Source of the DNA: Winogradskyella wandonensis | GTDB lineage: Bacteria > Bacteroidota > Bacteroidia > Flavobacteriales > Flavobacteriaceae | Assembly (NCBI RefSeq): GCF_004346845.1 | Contig: NZ_SMGI01000003.1 | Location: 1 to 64,000, forward strand | Direction of reading: 5' to 3' | DNA: 64,000 nucleotides | Shown here: positions 18,970 to 27,800 of the stretch, in pieces | How the letters are laid out: each line of letters opens with the position of its first letter | Position numbering within the stretch: the stretch's first letter is position 1 | Position numbers and translations under genes: made by a program | Notes under the pieces: generated by a model | Seen by the model: the letters and a program-made list of their open reading frames with translations, nothing else | Databases searched by the model: none | Told to the model about the DNA's origin: nothing

Positions 18970-19042
18970 GACTTGGTAGCTCAGTTGGTAGAGCATCTCC
19001 CTTTTAAGGAGAGGGTCCTGGGTTCGAGCCCCAGCCAAGTCA
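18970..19042 (+). tRNA. tRNA-Lys (TTT)
   Basis: Seventy-three nucleotides fold as a cloverleaf. The acceptor arms GACTTGG and CCAAGTC pair fully, the anticodon stem TCTCC/GGAGA holds loop CTTTTAA with anticodon TTT at 19003-19005, and the T arm contains GGTTCGAGCC. The discriminator is A and CCA is not encoded. Confidence 0.97.
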
Positions 19043-19047
19043 CTTTT

Positions 19048-19095: not shown

Positions 19096-19180
19096 GCGCA
19101 CGTGGCGGAATTGGTAGACGCGCTGGCTTGAGGGGCCAGTGACCGTTTAGGTCGTGGAAGTTCGAGTCTTCTCGTGCGCA
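19096..19180 (+). tRNA. tRNA-Leu (GAG)
   Basis: Eighty-five nucleotides with the long variable arm of a class II tRNA. Acceptor arms GCGCACG and CGTGCGC pair fully. The anticodon stem CTGGC/GCCAG holds loop TTGAGGG with anticodon GAG at 19130-19132. The discriminator is A and CCA is not encoded. Confidence 0.97.
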
Positions 19181-19237
19181 CTTTATACTATTATTCCTAA
19201 CTTTCTAAGAAATCTATTTAATTTTTGTTAAATAGTG

Positions 19238-19266
19238 TTGATTTTTCCTGCAAAGAGTTATTTTTG
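19238..19266 (+). promoter_or_regulatory. promoter of the merR-crtI-crtB-crtZ operon
   Basis: TTG at 19238-19240 and TATTTTTG at 19259-19266, 18 nt apart. The 8-bp palindrome GTTTAAAC follows at 19266-19273, near the expected transcript start. Related TTTTTGTT tracts occur near 19222 and 19261. These could be operator half-sites for the encoded regulator, which is inference. Confidence 0.65.
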
Positions 19267-19287
19267 TTTAAACTTTTAAATTAAATA

Positions 19288-20187
19288 ATGAACAATTTAA
19301 AAAGTAAGTTTAGCATAAAAGACCTTGAAAATCTTACGGGAATTAAAGCGCATACCATTAGAATATGGGAAAAGCGATATAATTTACTTACCCCAAAACG
19401 AACTGAAACGAACATAAGGTATTACGATTTAGCAAGTTTCCAAAAACTTCTGAATGTTAGCTACCTAAATAATAATGGTTATAAAATTTCTAAGATAGCC
19501 ACTTTAGACCCTAACGACATTCCAAAGCTAGTTAGAGAAATAGCCCAAGAATCTAATTTAGAAAGTCTGGCTATCAACTCTTTTAAACTATCGATGTTTA
19601 ATTTCGACCAATCCTTATTTTACAATACCTATAATGGTTTGCTTAAGGAGAAAACATTTGAAGATGTTTTTTATAACATCTTTATCCCATTATTAACAGA
19701 GATAGGACTTTTGTGGCAAACCAATACCATATCACCTGCACACGAGCATTTTTTAACAACGCTTATACGTCAGAAAATATTAATAAATACTGAAAAGATT
19801 CAATCAGTTGCAAAACCAAATTCTAGTAAGACATTTGTTTTGTTCTTGCCTGATAATGAAATTCATGAGTTAGGATTAATGTTTCTAAACTATCAATTAG
19901 TAGCTCACAACAATTACAGTATTTTATTGGGTCCAAGTGTACCAATGGAAAGTTTAAAAGACGTTCTAAATTATTATGATGATTTAGTGTTTGTTTCCTA
20001 TTTTACAATTAAGCCTGAAAAGGAAGAAATAGACAAGTACATTAAGGACTTTGACAAAAAGATACTTCAGAAATCAAATGCCGAATTCTGGATTTTAGGA
20101 AGAATGTTAGATAGTCTAGACTTAGAAAAACTTCCTAAGAAAATTAAACCATTTAAATCCATTCAATCTGTTGTAGAACAACTTTAA
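19288..20187 (+). CDS. MerR-family regulator with B12-binding-like domain (CarH/LitR type)
   Basis: Probable regulator of the adjoining carotenoid genes, 299 residues. Residues 8-75 are a MerR winged helix (SIKDLENLTGIKAHTIRIWEKRY). About 90-175 is a helical segment with W143 and HEH at 152-154, matching the W-x9-EH motif of CarH-type photoreceptors, where adenosylcobalamin docks. Residues 180-299 look like a B12-binding fold, with ExHxxG at 191-196 including the axial-ligand histidine H193. The later SxL and GG motifs are less clear (VSYF, LGRM). In CarH, AdoCbl keeps a DNA-bound tetramer together until light breaks it. Only 3 nt separate it from crtI. Confidence 0.83.
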   Translation: MNNLKSKFSIKDLENLTGIKAHTIRIWEKRYNLLTPKRTETNIRYYDLASFQKLLNVSYLNNNGYKISKIATLDPNDIPKLVREIAQESNLESLAINSFKLSMFNFDQSLFYNTYNGLLKEKTFEDVFYNIFIPLLTEIGLLWQTNTISPAHEHFLTTLIRQKILINTEKIQSVAKPNSSKTFVLFLPDNEIHELGLMFLNYQLVAHNNYSILLGPSVPMESLKDVLNYYDDLVFVSYFTIKPEKEEIDKYIKDFDKKILQKSNAEFWILGRMLDSLDLEKLPKKIKPFKSIQSVVEQL

Positions 20188-20190
20188 ATA

Positions 20191-21651
20191 ATGAAAAAAG
20201 TAGCAATAATAGGTTCTGGATTTTCTTCACTTTCTGCCGCTTGTTATCTAGCCAAAGAAGGGTTCGACGTTTCCGTATTCGAGAAAAACGCTACCGTTGG
20301 TGGAAGAGCAAGACAATTACAAAAAGAAGGTTTTACATTCGACATTGGTCCAAGCTGGTATTGGATGCCTGATATTTTTGAGAAGTTTTTTAATGATTTT
20401 GGGAAATCTACGAAAGACTATTACCAACTAGATAAGCTTAGTCCAGCATATAAAATATTTTTCGCCGATGACGAAATTACCATTGGCGATACTATGGACA
20501 AGATTTGTGAAGAATTTGAACGCATAGAACCAGGAAGTTCCAAACCCTTAAGAAAGTTTATTTCTAAGGCGCAAGAAAATTATGATATTGCTATAAATAA
20601 AATAGTACTTAAGCCAGGTTTATCACCCTTAGAACTTGTAACAAAAGATACTGTTACGCGCGTTGACCAATTTTTTAAAACCATTAGTGGTGAGGTAAGA
20701 AAAAAGTTTAAAAATCCTAAACTAGTATCTACTTTAGAGTTTCCCGTTTTATTTTTAGGTGCTAAACCTAGCAACACACCATCGTTTTATAGCTTTATGA
20801 ATTTTGCCGATTTTGGACTGGGCACATGGCATCCAAAAGGTGGTATGTACGAAGTTATTAAGGCAATGAAAAGTTTAGCCGAAAGTTTGGGTGTAAAAAT
20901 CGAAACAAACGCTACAGTAGAAAAAATTAATGTTGCTAACGGAAAAACAACAGGCATTACAGTTAATAATAAAGAGATTGTCACTGATTACGTTTTAAGC
21001 GGCGCAGATTATAGTCATTCCGAAACACTTTTAGACAACAAGTACAGACAATACAGCGAAAACTATTGGAGTAAAAAGACATTTGCTCCTTCGTCGCTAT
21101 TGTTCTATGTAGGATTTGATAAAAAATTAGAAAATGTAGAACATCATAATTTATTTTTCGATACTGATTTTGAAGCTCATGCAGAAGATATTTACGATAA
21201 TCCCAAGTGGCCAAAAGACCCCTTATTTTACGTTAATTTCCCTTCTATAACAGATGAGAGTATGGCGCCAAAAGGATGCGAAACAGGTTTTTTTCTAATT
21301 CCTATCGCTCCAGATTTAGAGGATACAGAAGCCTTAAGACAAAAATATTTTGATATTGTTATTGATAGATTTGAGAAAAAGACTAACCAAAAGGTCGTAA
21401 ATAATATTATCTTTAAAGAATCCTTCTGTGTAAAAGACTTTAAAAAAGAGTACAACTCATACAAAGGCAATGCTTACGGTATGGCTAATACACTATCCCA
21501 AACAGCATTTTTAAGACCTAACCTGAAAAGTAAAAAAGTAGATAACCTCTACTTTACTGGACAGTTAACAGTTCCTGGTCCAGGTGTTCCGCCATCATTG
21601 ATTTCGGGAAAGCTGGCTTCAGATTTAATAAAAAAACATTACCAAGATTAA
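20191..21651 (+). CDS. crtI: phytoene desaturase
   Basis: FAD-dependent desaturase converting phytoene to lycopene, 486 residues. The N-terminal dinucleotide fold is GSGFSSLSAACYLAKEGFDVSVFEKNATVGGRA, and the C-terminal FAD motif is the LYFTGQLTVPGPGVPPSLISGKLASDL tract. It is the second gene of an operon with the MerR regulator, crtB and crtZ. A second CrtI-like protein at 40983-42458 sits with cruF and is more likely CrtD, so this copy, next to phytoene synthase, is assigned the phytoene step. Confidence 0.93.
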   Translation: MKKVAIIGSGFSSLSAACYLAKEGFDVSVFEKNATVGGRARQLQKEGFTFDIGPSWYWMPDIFEKFFNDFGKSTKDYYQLDKLSPAYKIFFADDEITIGDTMDKICEEFERIEPGSSKPLRKFISKAQENYDIAINKIVLKPGLSPLELVTKDTVTRVDQFFKTISGEVRKKFKNPKLVSTLEFPVLFLGAKPSNTPSFYSFMNFADFGLGTWHPKGGMYEVIKAMKSLAESLGVKIETNATVEKINVANGKTTGITVNNKEIVTDYVLSGADYSHSETLLDNKYRQYSENYWSKKTFAPSSLLFYVGFDKKLENVEHHNLFFDTDFEAHAEDIYDNPKWPKDPLFYVNFPSITDESMAPKGCETGFFLIPIAPDLEDTEALRQKYFDIVIDRFEKKTNQKVVNNIIFKESFCVKDFKKEYNSYKGNAYGMANTLSQTAFLRPNLKSKKVDNLYFTGQLTVPGPGVPPSLISGKLASDLIKKHYQD

Positions 21652-21666
21652 TTAATATTAACCCTT

Positions 21667-22506
21667 ATGAAATCAATTTTCGACTCCGTTTCAAGAGAAT
21701 GCAGTAAGCTAGTTACGACGTCTTACAGCACTTCTTTTTCTATGGCTACCAAAATGCTTTCAGATAGCATAAGACAAGACATTTACAATATCTATGGATT
21801 TGTAAGATTTGCTGATGAAATTGTCGATACATTTCATGATTACGACAAAGCGGTCCTTTTCGATAAATTCTCTAAAGATTTAGAAGATGCTATTGAGATG
21901 AAAATTAGTCTTAATCCTATTTTAAATGCTTTTCAAGAAACATATCATAAGTATAATTTAGAAAAGCACATGGTCGATGCGTTTATGAAAAGTATGAAGC
22001 AAGACCTACACAAACATGAATATCTTACCGATGCTGAGTATAAAGAATACATCTATGGTTCTGCCGATGTTGTTGGATTAATGTGCCTAAAAGTTTTCGT
22101 TAAAGGTGATAATGAAAAATATAACGAACTTAAAGACTCGGCAATGAGCTTGGGCTCTGCGTTTCAAAAAGTAAATTTCTTAAGAGATTTAAAAGCAGAT
22201 TTCGAAGATTTAAGTCGTACATACTTCCCTAATACGGACTTAAATCATTTAGATGAAGCCTCTAAACAAGAAATAATTAGAGATATTGAAAAAGATTTTG
22301 AAAAAGGATTAGCAGGCATTAAAAAATTACCACTTGAGGCTAGATTCGGTGTATTTATGGCTTACAGATACTACAATAAATTATTAGATAAACTAAAGAA
22401 AACGCCAGCTCTGAAAATTAAATCGACCAGAATACGTGTTAATGACTACAAAAAAGTAGAACTTCTAACCCGTAGTTACGTAAAATATCAGTTAAATTTA
22501 CTCTAA
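21667..22506 (+). CDS. crtB: phytoene synthase
   Basis: Condenses two GGPP molecules to phytoene, the first carotenoid. The 279 residues carry both Asp-rich substrate motifs: RFADEIVDTF (D50 and D54) and the second within FLRDLKADFEDLSRTYFP. SYSTSFSMATKML near the start is the usual opening of the squalene/phytoene synthase fold. It lies 15 nt after crtI and 15 nt before crtZ. The GGPP synthase gene is not in this window. Confidence 0.95.
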   Translation: MKSIFDSVSRECSKLVTTSYSTSFSMATKMLSDSIRQDIYNIYGFVRFADEIVDTFHDYDKAVLFDKFSKDLEDAIEMKISLNPILNAFQETYHKYNLEKHMVDAFMKSMKQDLHKHEYLTDAEYKEYIYGSADVVGLMCLKVFVKGDNEKYNELKDSAMSLGSAFQKVNFLRDLKADFEDLSRTYFPNTDLNHLDEASKQEIIRDIEKDFEKGLAGIKKLPLEARFGVFMAYRYYNKLLDKLKKTPALKIKSTRIRVNDYKKVELLTRSYVKYQLNLL

Positions 22507-22521
22507 AATTAATCGATTAGT

Positions 22522-22968
22522 ATGGATGTTTTTTTGTGGATACTTATTTTTCTAGCCACCTTCTTTATCATGGAATTTAATGCATGGTTTACTCACAAAT
22601 ATATCATGCATGGATTTTTATGGAGTTTACATAAAGACCATCATCATAAAGACCACGATAGTTGGTTTGAGCGTAACGATGCGTTTTTTATTTTCTATGC
22701 TGTAGTTAGCATGACGTGCTTTTATCTCTGGGGAGAACAAAACATGTGGTATTGTCTGCCCATTGGTATAGGTATTATGGCTTATGGTTTGGCCTACTTT
22801 ATAGTTCACGATATTTTTATACATCAACGTTTTAAATGGTTAAGAAATATTGATAACAAATACGCAAGAGGCGTACGTCGTGCACACAAAATTCATCATA
22901 AACATTTGGGAAAAGATAAAGGCGAAAATTTTGGAATGCTTATAGTCCCACGCAAGTATTTTAAATAG
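22522..22968 (+). CDS. crtZ: beta-carotene hydroxylase
   Basis: Membrane di-iron hydroxylase that adds a 3-hydroxyl to beta-ionone rings, 148 residues. The histidine clusters of the fatty acid hydroxylase superfamily are all present: HKYIMH, LHKDHHHKDH, and RRAHKIHHKH near the C-terminus, between about four hydrophobic segments. It is the last gene of the merR-crtI-crtB-crtZ operon. Its 3' end overlaps a convergent thioredoxin-like gene by 8 nt. Confidence 0.93.
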   Translation: MDVFLWILIFLATFFIMEFNAWFTHKYIMHGFLWSLHKDHHHKDHDSWFERNDAFFIFYAVVSMTCFYLWGEQNMWYCLPIGIGIMAYGLAYFIVHDIFIHQRFKWLRNIDNKYARGVRRAHKIHHKHLGKDKGENFGMLIVPRKYFK

Positions 22969-23592: not shown

Positions 23593-24327
23593 TTAATTTC
23601 TATTCACAGTAATAGAGTTAGATAAGTGAAACGTACCCGTTAGGTCATTTGCATTTGTTACTGTTGCAATATTTGTATCGTTTTCGTAACGCAAGTACCA
23701 TATCAGGCAAACACCCACTCCTGCGCCATCGAAATTTACACCTTCCACAGCGCTTAATGTTGGTGGTGTACCTAAAATCATACCTGCATCATCAGTTATT
23801 ACCCAAGTAGCATTATTACCTACCCGATTATCAGGATTTTCAAAAGCAATACCGCTTACCATATCCGGCGTACCATCTACTGTAAAATTAAAAGGTCCTC
23901 CTGTTAAAACATCTGCATTAGGACCACGCTCTACTCTGATAGAATTTGAAAGACTAAATGTCCCAGTTAAATCTCCCGCATTAGTAACAGTATCTAAATT
24001 TGTATCATTCTCGTAACGTAAATACCAAATTAAGCAAACACCTCTGCCAGCACCATCGAAATTAACGCCTTCTAAGTCTGATAACGTAGGTGGTGTTCCT
24101 AAAATATTTAAATCTAAATCCGTAATTACAAACGTTCTATTTGTTCCTACTGCAGATGGGTCTGTAGAAACTCCTGTTACCATATCTGGCTGACCATCTA
24201 CAATAAAAGAAAAAGGGCCACCACTTAATGTGCCAGCGTCTGGGATAATTATTACATTATCATCGTCATCACAAGAAGTAAACATTAATCCTAATGCTAA
24301 AACTCCTAAAAACATTTTTTTAATCAT
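23593..24327 (-). CDS. lipoprotein with two tandem copies of an uncharacterised domain
   Basis: Lipoprotein of 244 residues with signal peptide and lipobox MFTSC (C19), followed by an acidic DDDD stretch. The mature protein is two copies of one roughly 105-residue unit, 34-134 and 141-243. Shared landmarks are SGGPF/TGGPF, DGxPDMV, ILGTPPTLS, EGVNFDGAG, GVCLIWYLRYENDTN and the closing LTGTFxLSNSI. Each unit has one Cys. I recall similar repeats in other secreted Bacteroidota proteins but know no function. It lies between a Crp-type regulator and a TlpA-like gene. Confidence 0.8.
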   Translation of the reverse strand: MIKKMFLGVLALGLMFTSCDDDDNVIIIPDAGTLSGGPFSFIVDGQPDMVTGVSTDPSAVGTNRTFVITDLDLNILGTPPTLSDLEGVNFDGAGRGVCLIWYLRYENDTNLDTVTNAGDLTGTFSLSNSIRVERGPNADVLTGGPFNFTVDGTPDMVSGIAFENPDNRVGNNATWVITDDAGMILGTPPTLSAVEGVNFDGAGVGVCLIWYLRYENDTNIATVTNANDLTGTFHLSNSITVNRN

Positions 24328-24406: not shown

Positions 24407-25078
24407 CTAAGCTGATTTTTTAAGTATTCTAATTTCGCTTCGATTAAAATCAATAATTTTATTTTCCTTCAAATCGTTTAAAAGTGTGTTTAAGGTGGGC
24501 CTCGAGATACCAATGAGTGACGCAATATCTTTTTGTGTATAAGGATGTTTTATAATATGGTCTCCTGTTTTAACGCAATTGTAACCATAATCCACGCAGA
24601 GCTCGTCTATAAATTCTTTTAATCTCGTTTTAGCGTCTTTAAATAATAAAAGCTGAAGCCTTCGTTCTAGTTTTTTGAATTTTAGCCCTATAAACTTGTA
24701 AATTTTAAAACTAAACGTCTGGTTATCTCTCATTAATTCGTGCAAGGTCTGCACACCGACAGGACAAATAGATGTATTATTATCTATGGACTGAGCAAAC
24801 TCGTCGCGTCTGCTATCTCCTAAAATTGCCTTTTCTCCAAACAGTTCTCCTTTGCGTAAAATAGCTTTTATAACTTCTACACCATCTTCATTATAATAAC
24901 CAATCTTTACTTTTCCTTTTTCTATTAAATAAACCTTATTTGCTGCATCTTCTTCAAAATAGATATAATCACTTTTTTTATAAGCATCGAATTGATGACT
25001 ATTTTTATAAGCCTTGAATTTGTGCGGGCAAAGTAGCCCAAACAGGTTAACATCCTCGAAGAGCCAAATAGTATTCAT
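24407..25078 (-). CDS. Crp/Fnr-family transcriptional regulator
   Basis: Regulator of 223 residues: an N-terminal cyclic-nucleotide-binding-like beta barrel (about 35-125, with YLIEKGKVKIGYYNEDG and RKGELFGEKAILGD) and a C-terminal helix-turn-helix (YTQKDIASLIGISRPTLNTLLNDLKENKIIDF). I see no Fnr-type iron-sulfur cysteine cluster. The effector is unknown. The downstream duplicated-domain lipoprotein on the same strand may be a target, which is a guess from position. Confidence 0.88.
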   Translation of the reverse strand: MNTIWLFEDVNLFGLLCPHKFKAYKNSHQFDAYKKSDYIYFEEDAANKVYLIEKGKVKIGYYNEDGVEVIKAILRKGELFGEKAILGDSRRDEFAQSIDNNTSICPVGVQTLHELMRDNQTFSFKIYKFIGLKFKKLERRLQLLLFKDAKTRLKEFIDELCVDYGYNCVKTGDHIIKHPYTQKDIASLIGISRPTLNTLLNDLKENKIIDFNRSEIRILKKSA

Positions 25079-26738: not shown

Positions 26739-27800
26739 TTAACCTCTTCTTCCGCCACCTCTAGAACCACCGCCTCGAGAGCTTCCTGATGATGACCTAG
26801 AGCCACCACTTGACCTTACGCTTCCTGAAGAACGCGAAGAGCCTCTAGAAGATCTAGTTGTTGTACCTCTTGATGGTCTAGAAATATTACCTCTTGATGG
26901 TCTTGCTGTGTTTCCTCTAGAAGGTCTGGTAGTCGAACCACGCGATGGACGTGTTGTTGTTCCTCTTGGTCTTGAAATAGTGCCTCTAGAAGGACGTGTC
27001 GTAGTTCCTCTTGGTCTTGATACAGTTCCTCTTGATGGACGTCCAGAAATATTTCTACCAACTCTAGTTCTTGAGCCATCTCTATTTCTTGTAAGTCCCG
27101 AAGAACGTCTAGACAAACTACTGTTACCTATTCTTCTAGAAAGATTGTTTCTACTATTTAATGCTAAATCTCTATTGTAAGCGCCTCTTCTACTTCTATT
27201 AAAGGCCAGATTATTTCTGTAGAAACCGTTATTCCAACCCCAATAATTGTTCCAGCCCCATCCAAAGCCGCCATTCCATAACCATGGGTCATTCCAGCCC
27301 CAGCCCCAACCAAAGCCAAGTCCTCCCCATCTGTTCCAACGATTCCAGCCCCAGCCCCAGTTATTCCAACCCCAGCCAAAGCCACCATTCCAAAGCCATG
27401 GGTCCCAACCCCAGCCCCAGTTATTCCAACCATTATCGTAATAGTTAATTACTACTCTGTCATTTACTTGTCCCCATCCGCCATAATCTTCAATAATTTC
27501 AACTTCGTTGTTGGCAACATTTCCACTTGTATAAGAATCAATATCAGTAAAAACTTCATCAGTCTCTTCTTGCGCTAACTGCGCATCAGTGACTTGATCT
27601 GCAAAATAATTAGCATAATAATTACTATTAGTCCTATTTGTAGCTGCTTGTTCAACCTCGACTACAACTTCGTCAGAACTGTAAATACCATCATTATCGT
27701 AACCAACGTATTGGTACGAACCACATGATGTAAGCATTATAAGCGCCCCTAATAACATAAAAGGCGTATATTTTTTTTTGAGTGTAGAAGTAAATCGCAT
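26739..27800 (-). CDS. low-complexity lipoprotein, Trp/Gly-rich and Ser/Arg/Gly-rich
   Basis: Lipoprotein of 353 residues with lipobox MLTSC (C26). After an acidic part (about 40-115) comes a Trp/Gly/Asn-rich tract (124-192) in which DPWLWNGGFGWGWNN occurs twice (133-147 and 171-185). The C-terminal half is basic: repeated RPSRG and RPRG units with Thr/Ser/Asn spacers (253-320), then an RSSG/RGGG tail. No catalytic domain. Similar proteins occur in Flavobacteriia but I know no function. The gene is divergent from proS, and a TATTTTTG -7 element on the minus strand (27830-27837) overlaps the proS promoter. Confidence 0.75.
   Translation of the reverse strand: MRFTSTLKKKYTPFMLLGALIMLTSCGSYQYVGYDNDGIYSSDEVVVEVEQAATNRTNSNYYANYFADQVTDAQLAQEETDEVFTDIDSYTSGNVANNEVEIIEDYGGWGQVNDRVVINYYDNGWNNWGWGWDPWLWNGGFGWGWNNWGWGWNRWNRWGGLGFGWGWGWNDPWLWNGGFGWGWNNYWGWNNGFYRNNLAFNRSRRGAYNRDLALNSRNNLSRRIGNSSLSRRSSGLTRNRDGSRTRVGRNISGRPSRGTVSRPRGTTTRPSRGTISRPRGTTTRPSRGSTTRPSRGNTARPSRGNISRPSRGTTTRSSRGSSRSSGSVRSSGGSRSSSGSSRGGGSRGGGRRG
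26841..27044 (-). repeat. intragenic repeat encoding RPSRG units
   Basis: About ten short units of 15 to 24 bases encode RPSRG or RPRG followed by three to five small polar residues. At DNA level the copies are similar but not identical. Such tracts can change length by slippage. Confidence 0.75.

Follow-up and report, generated by a model that had tools for sequence, protein, structure and literature searches.

The stretch of DNA analysed here, referred to as the window, comprises 64,000 nucleotides from Winogradskyella wandonensis (contig NZ_SMGI01000003.1, the start of contig C3 in a genome of 2.96 Mb and 13 contigs) and contains a gene for a MerR-type regulator of 299 amino acids (19288-20187, plus strand), which heads a carotenoid (crt) operon. 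This protein is probably a Flavobacteriaceae regulator of the CarH/LitR type, which would act as a repressor in the dark and be released by light via adenosylcobalamin (AdoCbl), as judged from its conserved residues, its predicted fold and an inverted-repeat operator common to its relatives. More tentatively, it may represent a distinct class of B12 photoreceptors of the Flavobacteriaceae which lacks the bis-His light state and serves as a global light switch, with one protein and one inverted-repeat operator governing carotenoid genes, photolyase/cryptochrome-type enzymes, folate-antenna synthesis (folE), an ABC1 kinase and fasciclin surface proteins, and with an Ile/Lys position in the recognition helix having rewired the operator in one lineage. 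Novelty resides in the operator, the regulon in trans and the helix switch, while a CarH-type gene as such is no surprise, because CarH homologues are spread over diverse taxa, as stated in an excerpt of PMC8156234. No published description of a CarH/LitR regulon, of this operator or of light control by it in Flavobacteriaceae was found among the top-ranked matches in the open-licence PMC literature.

The homologues used for comparison were divided into groups A to D by score and kinship, which are not clades. Group A consists of 93 full-length orthologues from Flavobacteriaceae (30 best matches, 60 hand-picked sequences and 3 from genomes without adenosyltransferase) and is biased to higher-scoring relatives; group B contains four sequences, group C 21 divergent homologues from Flavobacteriaceae, and 30 sequences come from other families. 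Two incomplete sequences (L073 and L099) were excluded from residue counts and from the tree, which includes 22 of the 93 group A sequences, and the Thermus CarH reference (L130, a named plasmid gene) was aligned with 148 homologues. The regulator, as delineated from its open reading frame (ORF), Pfam and PDB sequence searches, residue alignment and structural model, starts with a MerR winged-helix DNA-binding domain (residues 8-73, 19309-19506; Pfam MerR_1, 6.8e-15), whose recognition helix RIWEKRY at residues 25-31 follows the RxWE(R)RY pattern of CarH (class I LitR). It continues with a four-helix bundle forming the B12 cap (residues 77-174, 19516-19809; model, and Pfam B12-binding_2 at 98-164, 1.6e-8) and a Rossmann domain (residues 182-298, 19831-20181), which is seen in the model and by VIA-align and gave no PF02310 match up to E 1 in the Pfam search. 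Thermus CarH/LitR is the top match in the PDB sequence search (1e-13), and the regulator finds only itself when searched against its own genome at E 0.01.

The W-x9-EH and ExHxxG motifs of AdoCbl photoreceptors that had been named in a preliminary description of this DNA are indeed present, as W143-x9-E153-H154 (19714-19749) and E191-I-H193-EL-G196 (19858-19875), the latter being of the D/ExHx2G/P type with H193 at the lower axial position, the predicted lower cobalt ligand. The residues of Thermus CarH map onto the regulator as W131 to W143, E141 to E153, H142 to H154, E175 to E191, H177 to H193 and G180 to G196. Within group A, G128, W131, E141, E175 and H177 (CarH numbering) are conserved in all 93 sequences and H142 and G180 in 92 each, and the AdoCbl-contact residues W131, E141, H142 and H177 are jointly kept in 92 of 93, the sole exception being L193 with Arg for H142. 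The combination of GxxW-x9-EH and [DE]xH occurs in 92 of 93 sequences of group A, all four of group B, all 21 of group C and 23 of the 30 from other families; since the other seven depart from the motif, retention of the B12 site is not automatic. Of the published signature of light-responsive cobalamin domains (GxxW, EH, GxxH and GxxxP; PMC11796333, in excerpt), the regulator shows G140-LL-W143, E153-H154 and G215-PSV-P219, and 89 of the 93 group A sequences combine GxxW-x9-EH and [DE]xH with LGxxxP.

An AlphaFold2 model computed from 53 sequences (pLDDT 88.4, pTM 0.82) shows the CarH arrangement of a four-helix bundle followed by a five-stranded Rossmann half, and all 50 matches listed by Foldseek are chains of CarH, CtMerR or photocobilin. 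VIA-align places the dark state of CarH first (Z 21.0, rmsd 2.4 over 195 residues), followed by SasPcob (20.4), CtMerR (19.6) and MetH (17.5), at a sequence identity to Thermus CarH of 17-20% in structural alignments. The CarH alignment spans model residues 79-299 and the list of matches residues 90-299, so the DNA-binding half is hardly probed. The Rossmann half is therefore predicted to fold despite its altered late motifs and the missing PF02310 match, and with its conserved contact residues and a predicted CarH fold the regulator is not a decayed relic. On the sequence evidence it is filed as a variant of the CarH kind rather than as CarH in the strict sense, because the full B12 motif, a score above the NCBIfam cut-off and a direct-repeat operator were all looked for and not found. 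We take the salt bridge of the CarH dimer to be Arg176/Asp201; the aligned positions are Ile192 and Ser217, so the oligomer may differ as well. In some Bacteroidota homologues (L120, L126 and L133) the B12 site has been partly lost, L133 from Persicobacter lacking both EH and the axial His; they offer natural comparisons for a loss of cobalamin binding.

Regarding the cofactor, the genome encodes a PduO-type cobalamin adenosyltransferase (C1:330270-330782; PF01923, 7.4e-62), and a profile search of it for the CobA type (PF02572) gave no match. PF02607 matches in two places, one being the regulator and the better one (7.5e-26) a protein which we take to be MetH. Among 299 sampled Flavobacteriaceae genomes, 276 contain PF01923, and 242 contain homologues of the regulator at 1e-10, a count that includes the divergent group C homologues.

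The operator of the relatives is best seen in the gap between the regulator gene and crtI, which lies immediately downstream on the same strand in 90 of the 93 group A loci (the other three have no crtI in the fetched stretch). Sixty of these 90 gaps measure at least 30 nt, and 52 of the 60 carry the inverted repeat TTGTTTAAC-N14-GTTAAACAA with at most three mismatches (26 perfect; spacing 14 in 51 and 15 in one), as compared to a mean of 0.38 and at most 2 in shuffled gap stretches. The repeat shares bases with a TAnnTTTG element, and in 51 of 52 cases its end is no more than 3 nt away from the crtI ATG, which suggests that the crtI transcript of these loci has little or no leader. A second site, TANNTTTGTYWM, is found 5' of the regulator gene in 79 of 93 loci (mean in shuffles, 0.88), and in 72 of these its end is 17 nt ahead of the ATG. 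A second set of 80 named loci, which partly overlaps the first, gives a similar picture, with crtI adjoining the regulator on the same strand in 79, the repeat in 34 of 39 long gaps and the upstream element in 71 (62 at 17 nt). On the opposite strand the half-site reads GTTAAACAA and contains T-AA-ACA, a TnnACA core common to this operator and to the published CarH and LitR sites, which are tandem 11-bp direct repeats of nAnnTnnACAn for CarH (PMC8156234, in excerpt) and TGTACA-N12-TGTACA for the class II LitR of Pseudomonas (excerpt of PMC9758184). The conserved flavobacterial site is thus an inverted repeat with N14 and not the tandem direct repeat of CarH.

In the window itself, the stop codon of the regulator gene ends at 20187 and the ATG of crtI follows at 20191, leaving a gap of 3 nt. 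The 106 bp between the preceding tRNA gene and the regulator start contain a predicted promoter element, TATTTTTG, which overlaps the operator half-site TTGTTTAAAC and ends 14-16 nt before the start codon (upstream site TATTTTTGTTTAAAC, 19259-19273, plus strand, with the good half-site at 19261-19273), and a weak upstream half-site, TTGTTAAATA (19225-19234, plus strand). A similar TTTTGTTAAT or TTTGTTAAA is found at roughly this position in a number of close relatives (L002-L005, L303-L309 and L311). Among named sequences, the regulator is most closely related to that of a Winogradskyella bin, at 80% identity (L303). The interval 19215-19275 proposed in the preliminary description spans both half-sites. 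Note that the three TnnACA cores on one strand of these 106 bp mean little, because the core is short. The pattern TANNTTTGTTTAA has 15 matches in the genome, including the crt promoter, versus 7 for its control; a plain half-site count (TTGTTWAAC, 136 versus 156 for the reversed control) was uninformative and was discarded.

The exact repeat GTTTAAC-N14-GTTAAAC also recurs elsewhere, being present in 76 of 199 genomes of the family. It occurs in 73 of 150 genomes with a group A or B regulator versus 3 of 49 without one (Fisher test, p about 2e-8, from a hand tally that ignores relatedness); of the latter three, G025 has an RIWE protein, and the sites in G079 and G098 are unexplained. Altogether, 65 distinct sites were examined (the listed non-crt sites, some crt sites and the two of the own genome), with at least 12 further crt sites among the matches listed, and 62 of the 65 are located at crt/regulator, TetR-ABC1, photolyase-cluster or fasciclin genes. 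Twenty precede a TetR_C_23 gene with an ABC1 kinase gene beside it, 15 lie at crtI or the regulator gene (L222, L251, L276 and L280, the last at 254 nt, were reassigned there by hand from script labels), 13 precede a gene for a 141-aa protein of a photolyase cluster, and 6 precede fasciclin genes. Another 8 are elsewhere in or near photolyase clusters; only L221 has a cluster gene (folE) directly next to it, and the 7 others are loosely placed, with a photolyase or short-chain dehydrogenase gene within the 3-4 kb fetched. Three sites (L231, L270 and L279) are unexplained. The genome of W. wandonensis contains exactly two exact repeats (reversed control, 0), at C5:120312-120339 and C5:128904-128931, both in a single cluster (L261, C5:117000-136500) with four photolyase/cryptochrome-type genes, FolE, an ABC1 kinase and a TetR_C_23 regulator. 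The first repeat is followed by the genes for TetR_C_23, ABC1 kinase, flavin reductase, NmrA/DUF2867, Cry-DASH (511 bits versus a cut-off of 317), the photolyase-related DPRP and a photolyase/cryptochrome; the second by those for the 141-aa protein, TIGR03643, FolE, a 75-aa ORF, a short-chain dehydrogenase and glutathione peroxidase, with another photolyase gene further on.

The binding protein is indicated by the recognition helix, in which the motif R25-I26-W27-E28 (19360-19371, plus strand) contains a residue, I26, that covaries with the operator. In 17 of the 21 group C homologues this motif reads RKWE instead of RIWE. When sites were scored irrespective of their third base and only those of at least 11 out of 12 were counted, a threshold that shuffles reach in 19 of 1140 cases, sites were obtained for 49 of 92 group A proteins with RIWE (46 T/T, 3 T/C), for all four group C proteins with RIWE (2 T/T, 1 T/C, 1 T/A), and for 9 of the 17 with RKWE, all of which are C/C and resemble GTCTAAY-N14-RTTAGAC; one group A protein without a clear helix match has a T/T site. 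The promoters of the TetR-ABC1 genes served as sites in trans, the TetR gene being present in 18 of 30 genomes checked. In the genomes with RKWE, they are C/C in G038 and G262, C/T in G230, and contain GTCTAAT and GTTAGAC at a spacing of 15 in G040; in those with RIWE, they are T/T in G045, G069 and G025, and T/T at score 10 in G104 and G241. The site of G056 is partial, and that of G115 is T/T, the helix of G115 not having been read. An Ile-to-Lys change in the helix which is matched by a base change at unlinked sites points to the regulator as the likely binder.

From these data we infer direct binding, cobalamin as ligand, repression as the sign of control and light as the signal, along the following lines. 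By analogy with CarH, the AdoCbl-loaded regulator would oligomerise in the dark and bind TnnACA-type half-sites that lie next to TAnnTTTG promoters or share bases with them, thereby blocking these promoters; light would break the Co-C bond, the regulator would leave the DNA, and the crt and repair genes would be expressed. In W. wandonensis, the upstream site at 19225-19273 would serve the regulator, crtI, crtB and crtZ genes as a single autoregulated operon, because the 3-nt gap has no room for the second operator of many relatives, and the regulator would set its own level, since its gene is the first of the operon. In trans, it may control the photolyase/cryptochrome-folE cluster, in which both exact repeats of the genome are located. 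The light and B12 interpretation proposed in the preliminary description gains indirect support from the contact residues, the predicted CarH fold, the PduO-type adenosyltransferase and the CarH/LitR-like operator at crt and photolyase genes.

Several observations weigh against this interpretation. The regulator scores only 69 bits with the NCBIfam CarH model NF052513, whose cut-off is 400. The position of CarH His132, adjoining W143, is occupied by Gln (Q144), as in 91 of 93 group A sequences, which makes the bis-His light state of Thermus CarH impossible in this protein, and the Gly of the GxxH signature is replaced by N190 (in group A, Asn in 76 of 93 and Gly in 3 of 93). The late B12 motifs are literally as degenerate as had been described, reading x40-S237-Y-F-x31-G271-R272 (SYF and GR) instead of the x41-SxT/V-x22-27-GG of CarH (PMC9304148, in excerpt); the accompanying suggestion that cobalamin binding may have been lost is not supported, as the residues contacting Ado and cobalt are precisely the conserved ones. 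Two genomes that are both 99% complete (G008 and G064) contain the regulator and lack a PF01923 match, and G280 with its regulator L071 is likewise not among the genomes matched by PF01923; the regulators of all three (L070-L072) retain the contact residues. The crt promoter of W. wandonensis contains no N14 repeat, just one good and one weak half-site, and the repeat is absent from the 30 short gaps among the 90 (window included) and from 8 of the 60 long ones. The reversed control pattern occurs in 23 of 199 genomes by hand count, indicating that some of the repeats in the 76 genomes may be due to chance. Of the 18 TetR promoters, 7 show no clear site (G001, G007, G014, G026, G075, G120 and G168), 4 of them from RIWE-type relatives of group A or the own type. 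Finally, the helix switch is one event on the tree, where the 18 RKWE rows fall together (support 92/91) next to L088 and L091 with RIWE, so what counts is the parallel change at unlinked promoters rather than how many genomes show the switch.

Some of these observations would also suit a regulator that controls the same genes after abandoning AdoCbl photochemistry and receives the light signal via a partner, such as a cryptochrome-like protein of the cluster, in analogy to the class II LitR proteins with their LOV partner (PMC9758184, in excerpt). Q144, the altered late motifs, the genomes G008 and G064 and the cryptochrome-type genes of L261 fit such a scheme, which nevertheless seems unlikely, since 92 of 93 orthologues preserve precisely the AdoCbl contacts, the Trp of Wx9EH that the B12-independent CarA has lost along with flanking residues (excerpt of PMC9304148) is present in all 93, class II LitR is described as retaining the four-helix bundle but not the Rossmann B12 domain, and Gln at position 132 also occurs in SasPcob, which is reported to respond to light (PMC11796333, in excerpt). 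A sensor for the supply or form of cobalamin instead of light, in which the apo-protein or a non-Ado cobalamin frees the operators when B12 is short, would do with identical contact residues, and sequence cannot separate both functions; this is nonetheless improbable in view of the repeat contexts, which are related to light and UV (photolyases and carotenoids) with no B12 metabolism seen among them, and of the absence of any cobalamin riboswitch at the gathering threshold in the three stretches searched (the window, L261 and L262). That the repeat belongs to the adjacent TetR_C_23 regulator is very improbable despite the 20 of 65 repeats directly upstream of such a gene, given that its letters track the CarH-type helix even at the TetR promoter (T-type in G025 of group C with RIWE, C-type in G038 and G262 with RKWE), that TnnACA agrees with the published CarH/LitR sites, and that the crt repeats of G021, G083 (88% complete) and G141 (L176, L164 and L006) come without a TetR match at 1e-10, so TetR_C_23 is not needed for the crt repeat.

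The proposed light-released AdoCbl repressor resembles CarH of Thermus thermophilus (class I LitR; PDB 5C8A, 5C8D-F) in domain order, predicted fold, Wx9EH, ExHxxG and TnnACA, and also in its carotenoid neighbourhood and photolyase link, since carH lies by phytoene synthase and photolyase genes. It differs by Gln in place of His132, the SYF and GR late motifs, the low identity in structural alignments, and an N14-spaced inverted repeat where CarH has 11-bp direct repeats, with the photolyase genes in trans. An H132A variant of CarH is unable to monomerise (PMC11796333, in excerpt). The class II LitR proteins of Pseudomonas (PplR and PmlR) resemble the regulator in its predicted targets (photolyase, cryptochrome, FolE and short-chain dehydrogenase), their reported regulon containing PhrB, FolE and CryB, and in an operator of two TnnACA-type half-sites, but are described as retaining only the four-helix bundle and working with a LOV partner (excerpt of PMC9758184), whereas the present regulator preserves the AdoCbl contacts and has a predicted Rossmann half. 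SasPcob, which we presume not to be a MerR regulator, differs from the protein studied here in that respect. In CtMerR and the photocobilin SasPcob (PDB 8JBS, 8J2W), a cobalamin domain without His132 (Arg and Gln, respectively) is nevertheless light-responsive, as described in PMC11796333 (in excerpt). In Chryseobacterium lacus, a flavobacterial crt cluster with crtI, crtB and crtZ rises in light; no CarH/LitR gene is named in the excerpts of PMC7064467, whose authors speculate about a hypothetical gene without settling the mechanism. MliR of Bizionia was considered as a characterised homologue and rejected, as it lacks an effector domain according to its abstract and is therefore no homologue of the sensor half.

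A candidate regulator for light-induced carotenoids of flavobacteria, with matches in most of the sampled genomes, is thus supplied together with an operator and a target list, and the Ile/Lys switch allows DNA site selection by CarH-type proteins to be tested directly. If AdoCbl is needed, light protection in marine bacteria that scavenge B12 would depend on the B12 produced by their neighbours.

The remainder of the locus agrees largely with the preliminary description, in which the regulator was placed 3 nt before crtI and ahead of crtB and crtZ. The gap, crtI and crtB are borne out, and crtZ is the likely name of the last gene on a weaker basis. All four genes are on the plus strand. The phytoene desaturase gene crtI (20191-21651) exceeds the cut-off of the NCBIfam model CrtID (733.8 versus 640 bits), which is titled 'bifunctional phytoene desaturase/3,4-desaturase', and the phytoene synthase gene crtB (21667-22506) matches Pfam SQS_PSY (4.9e-49). 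The crtZ-like hydroxylase ORF (22522-22968) has no convincing Pfam match and no NCBIfam match in the respective searches, and its similarity is to Pantoea plasmid proteins of the 'sterol desaturase family' (40.7% identity, 7e-19). No lycopene cyclase gene is present in the operon between crtI and 22968. Upstream, the genes for tRNA-Lys (18970-19043) and tRNA-Leu (19096-19181) precede the promoter region. A CRP/FNR-type regulator gene is located 1.4 kb past the operon (24407-25078, minus strand), and in Thermus the CRP/FNR gene ldrP follows carH; a partner role like that of LdrP was considered, and a CRP/FNR match near the operon was found in 14 of the 80 named loci, several of which are incomplete.

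Among the homologous loci, L342 and L359 represent the flavobacterial locus inside metagenome bins whose titles, Bifidobacterium breve and Klebsiella pneumoniae, are probably wrong for these contigs. A betaproteobacterial CarH-like gene on a plasmid of Eleftheria terrae (L131) also neighbours a gene for a fasciclin-domain protein, which recalls the fasciclin genes preceded by the repeat in flavobacteria. Further along the window, on the minus strand, a 244-aa lipoprotein-like ORF (23593-24327) consists of two similar tandem copies of about 100 residues each, and a 353-aa protein (26739-27800) contains a long Trp/Gly/Asn-rich repeat region (WGWGWN...) and an Arg/Ser/Gly-rich tail.

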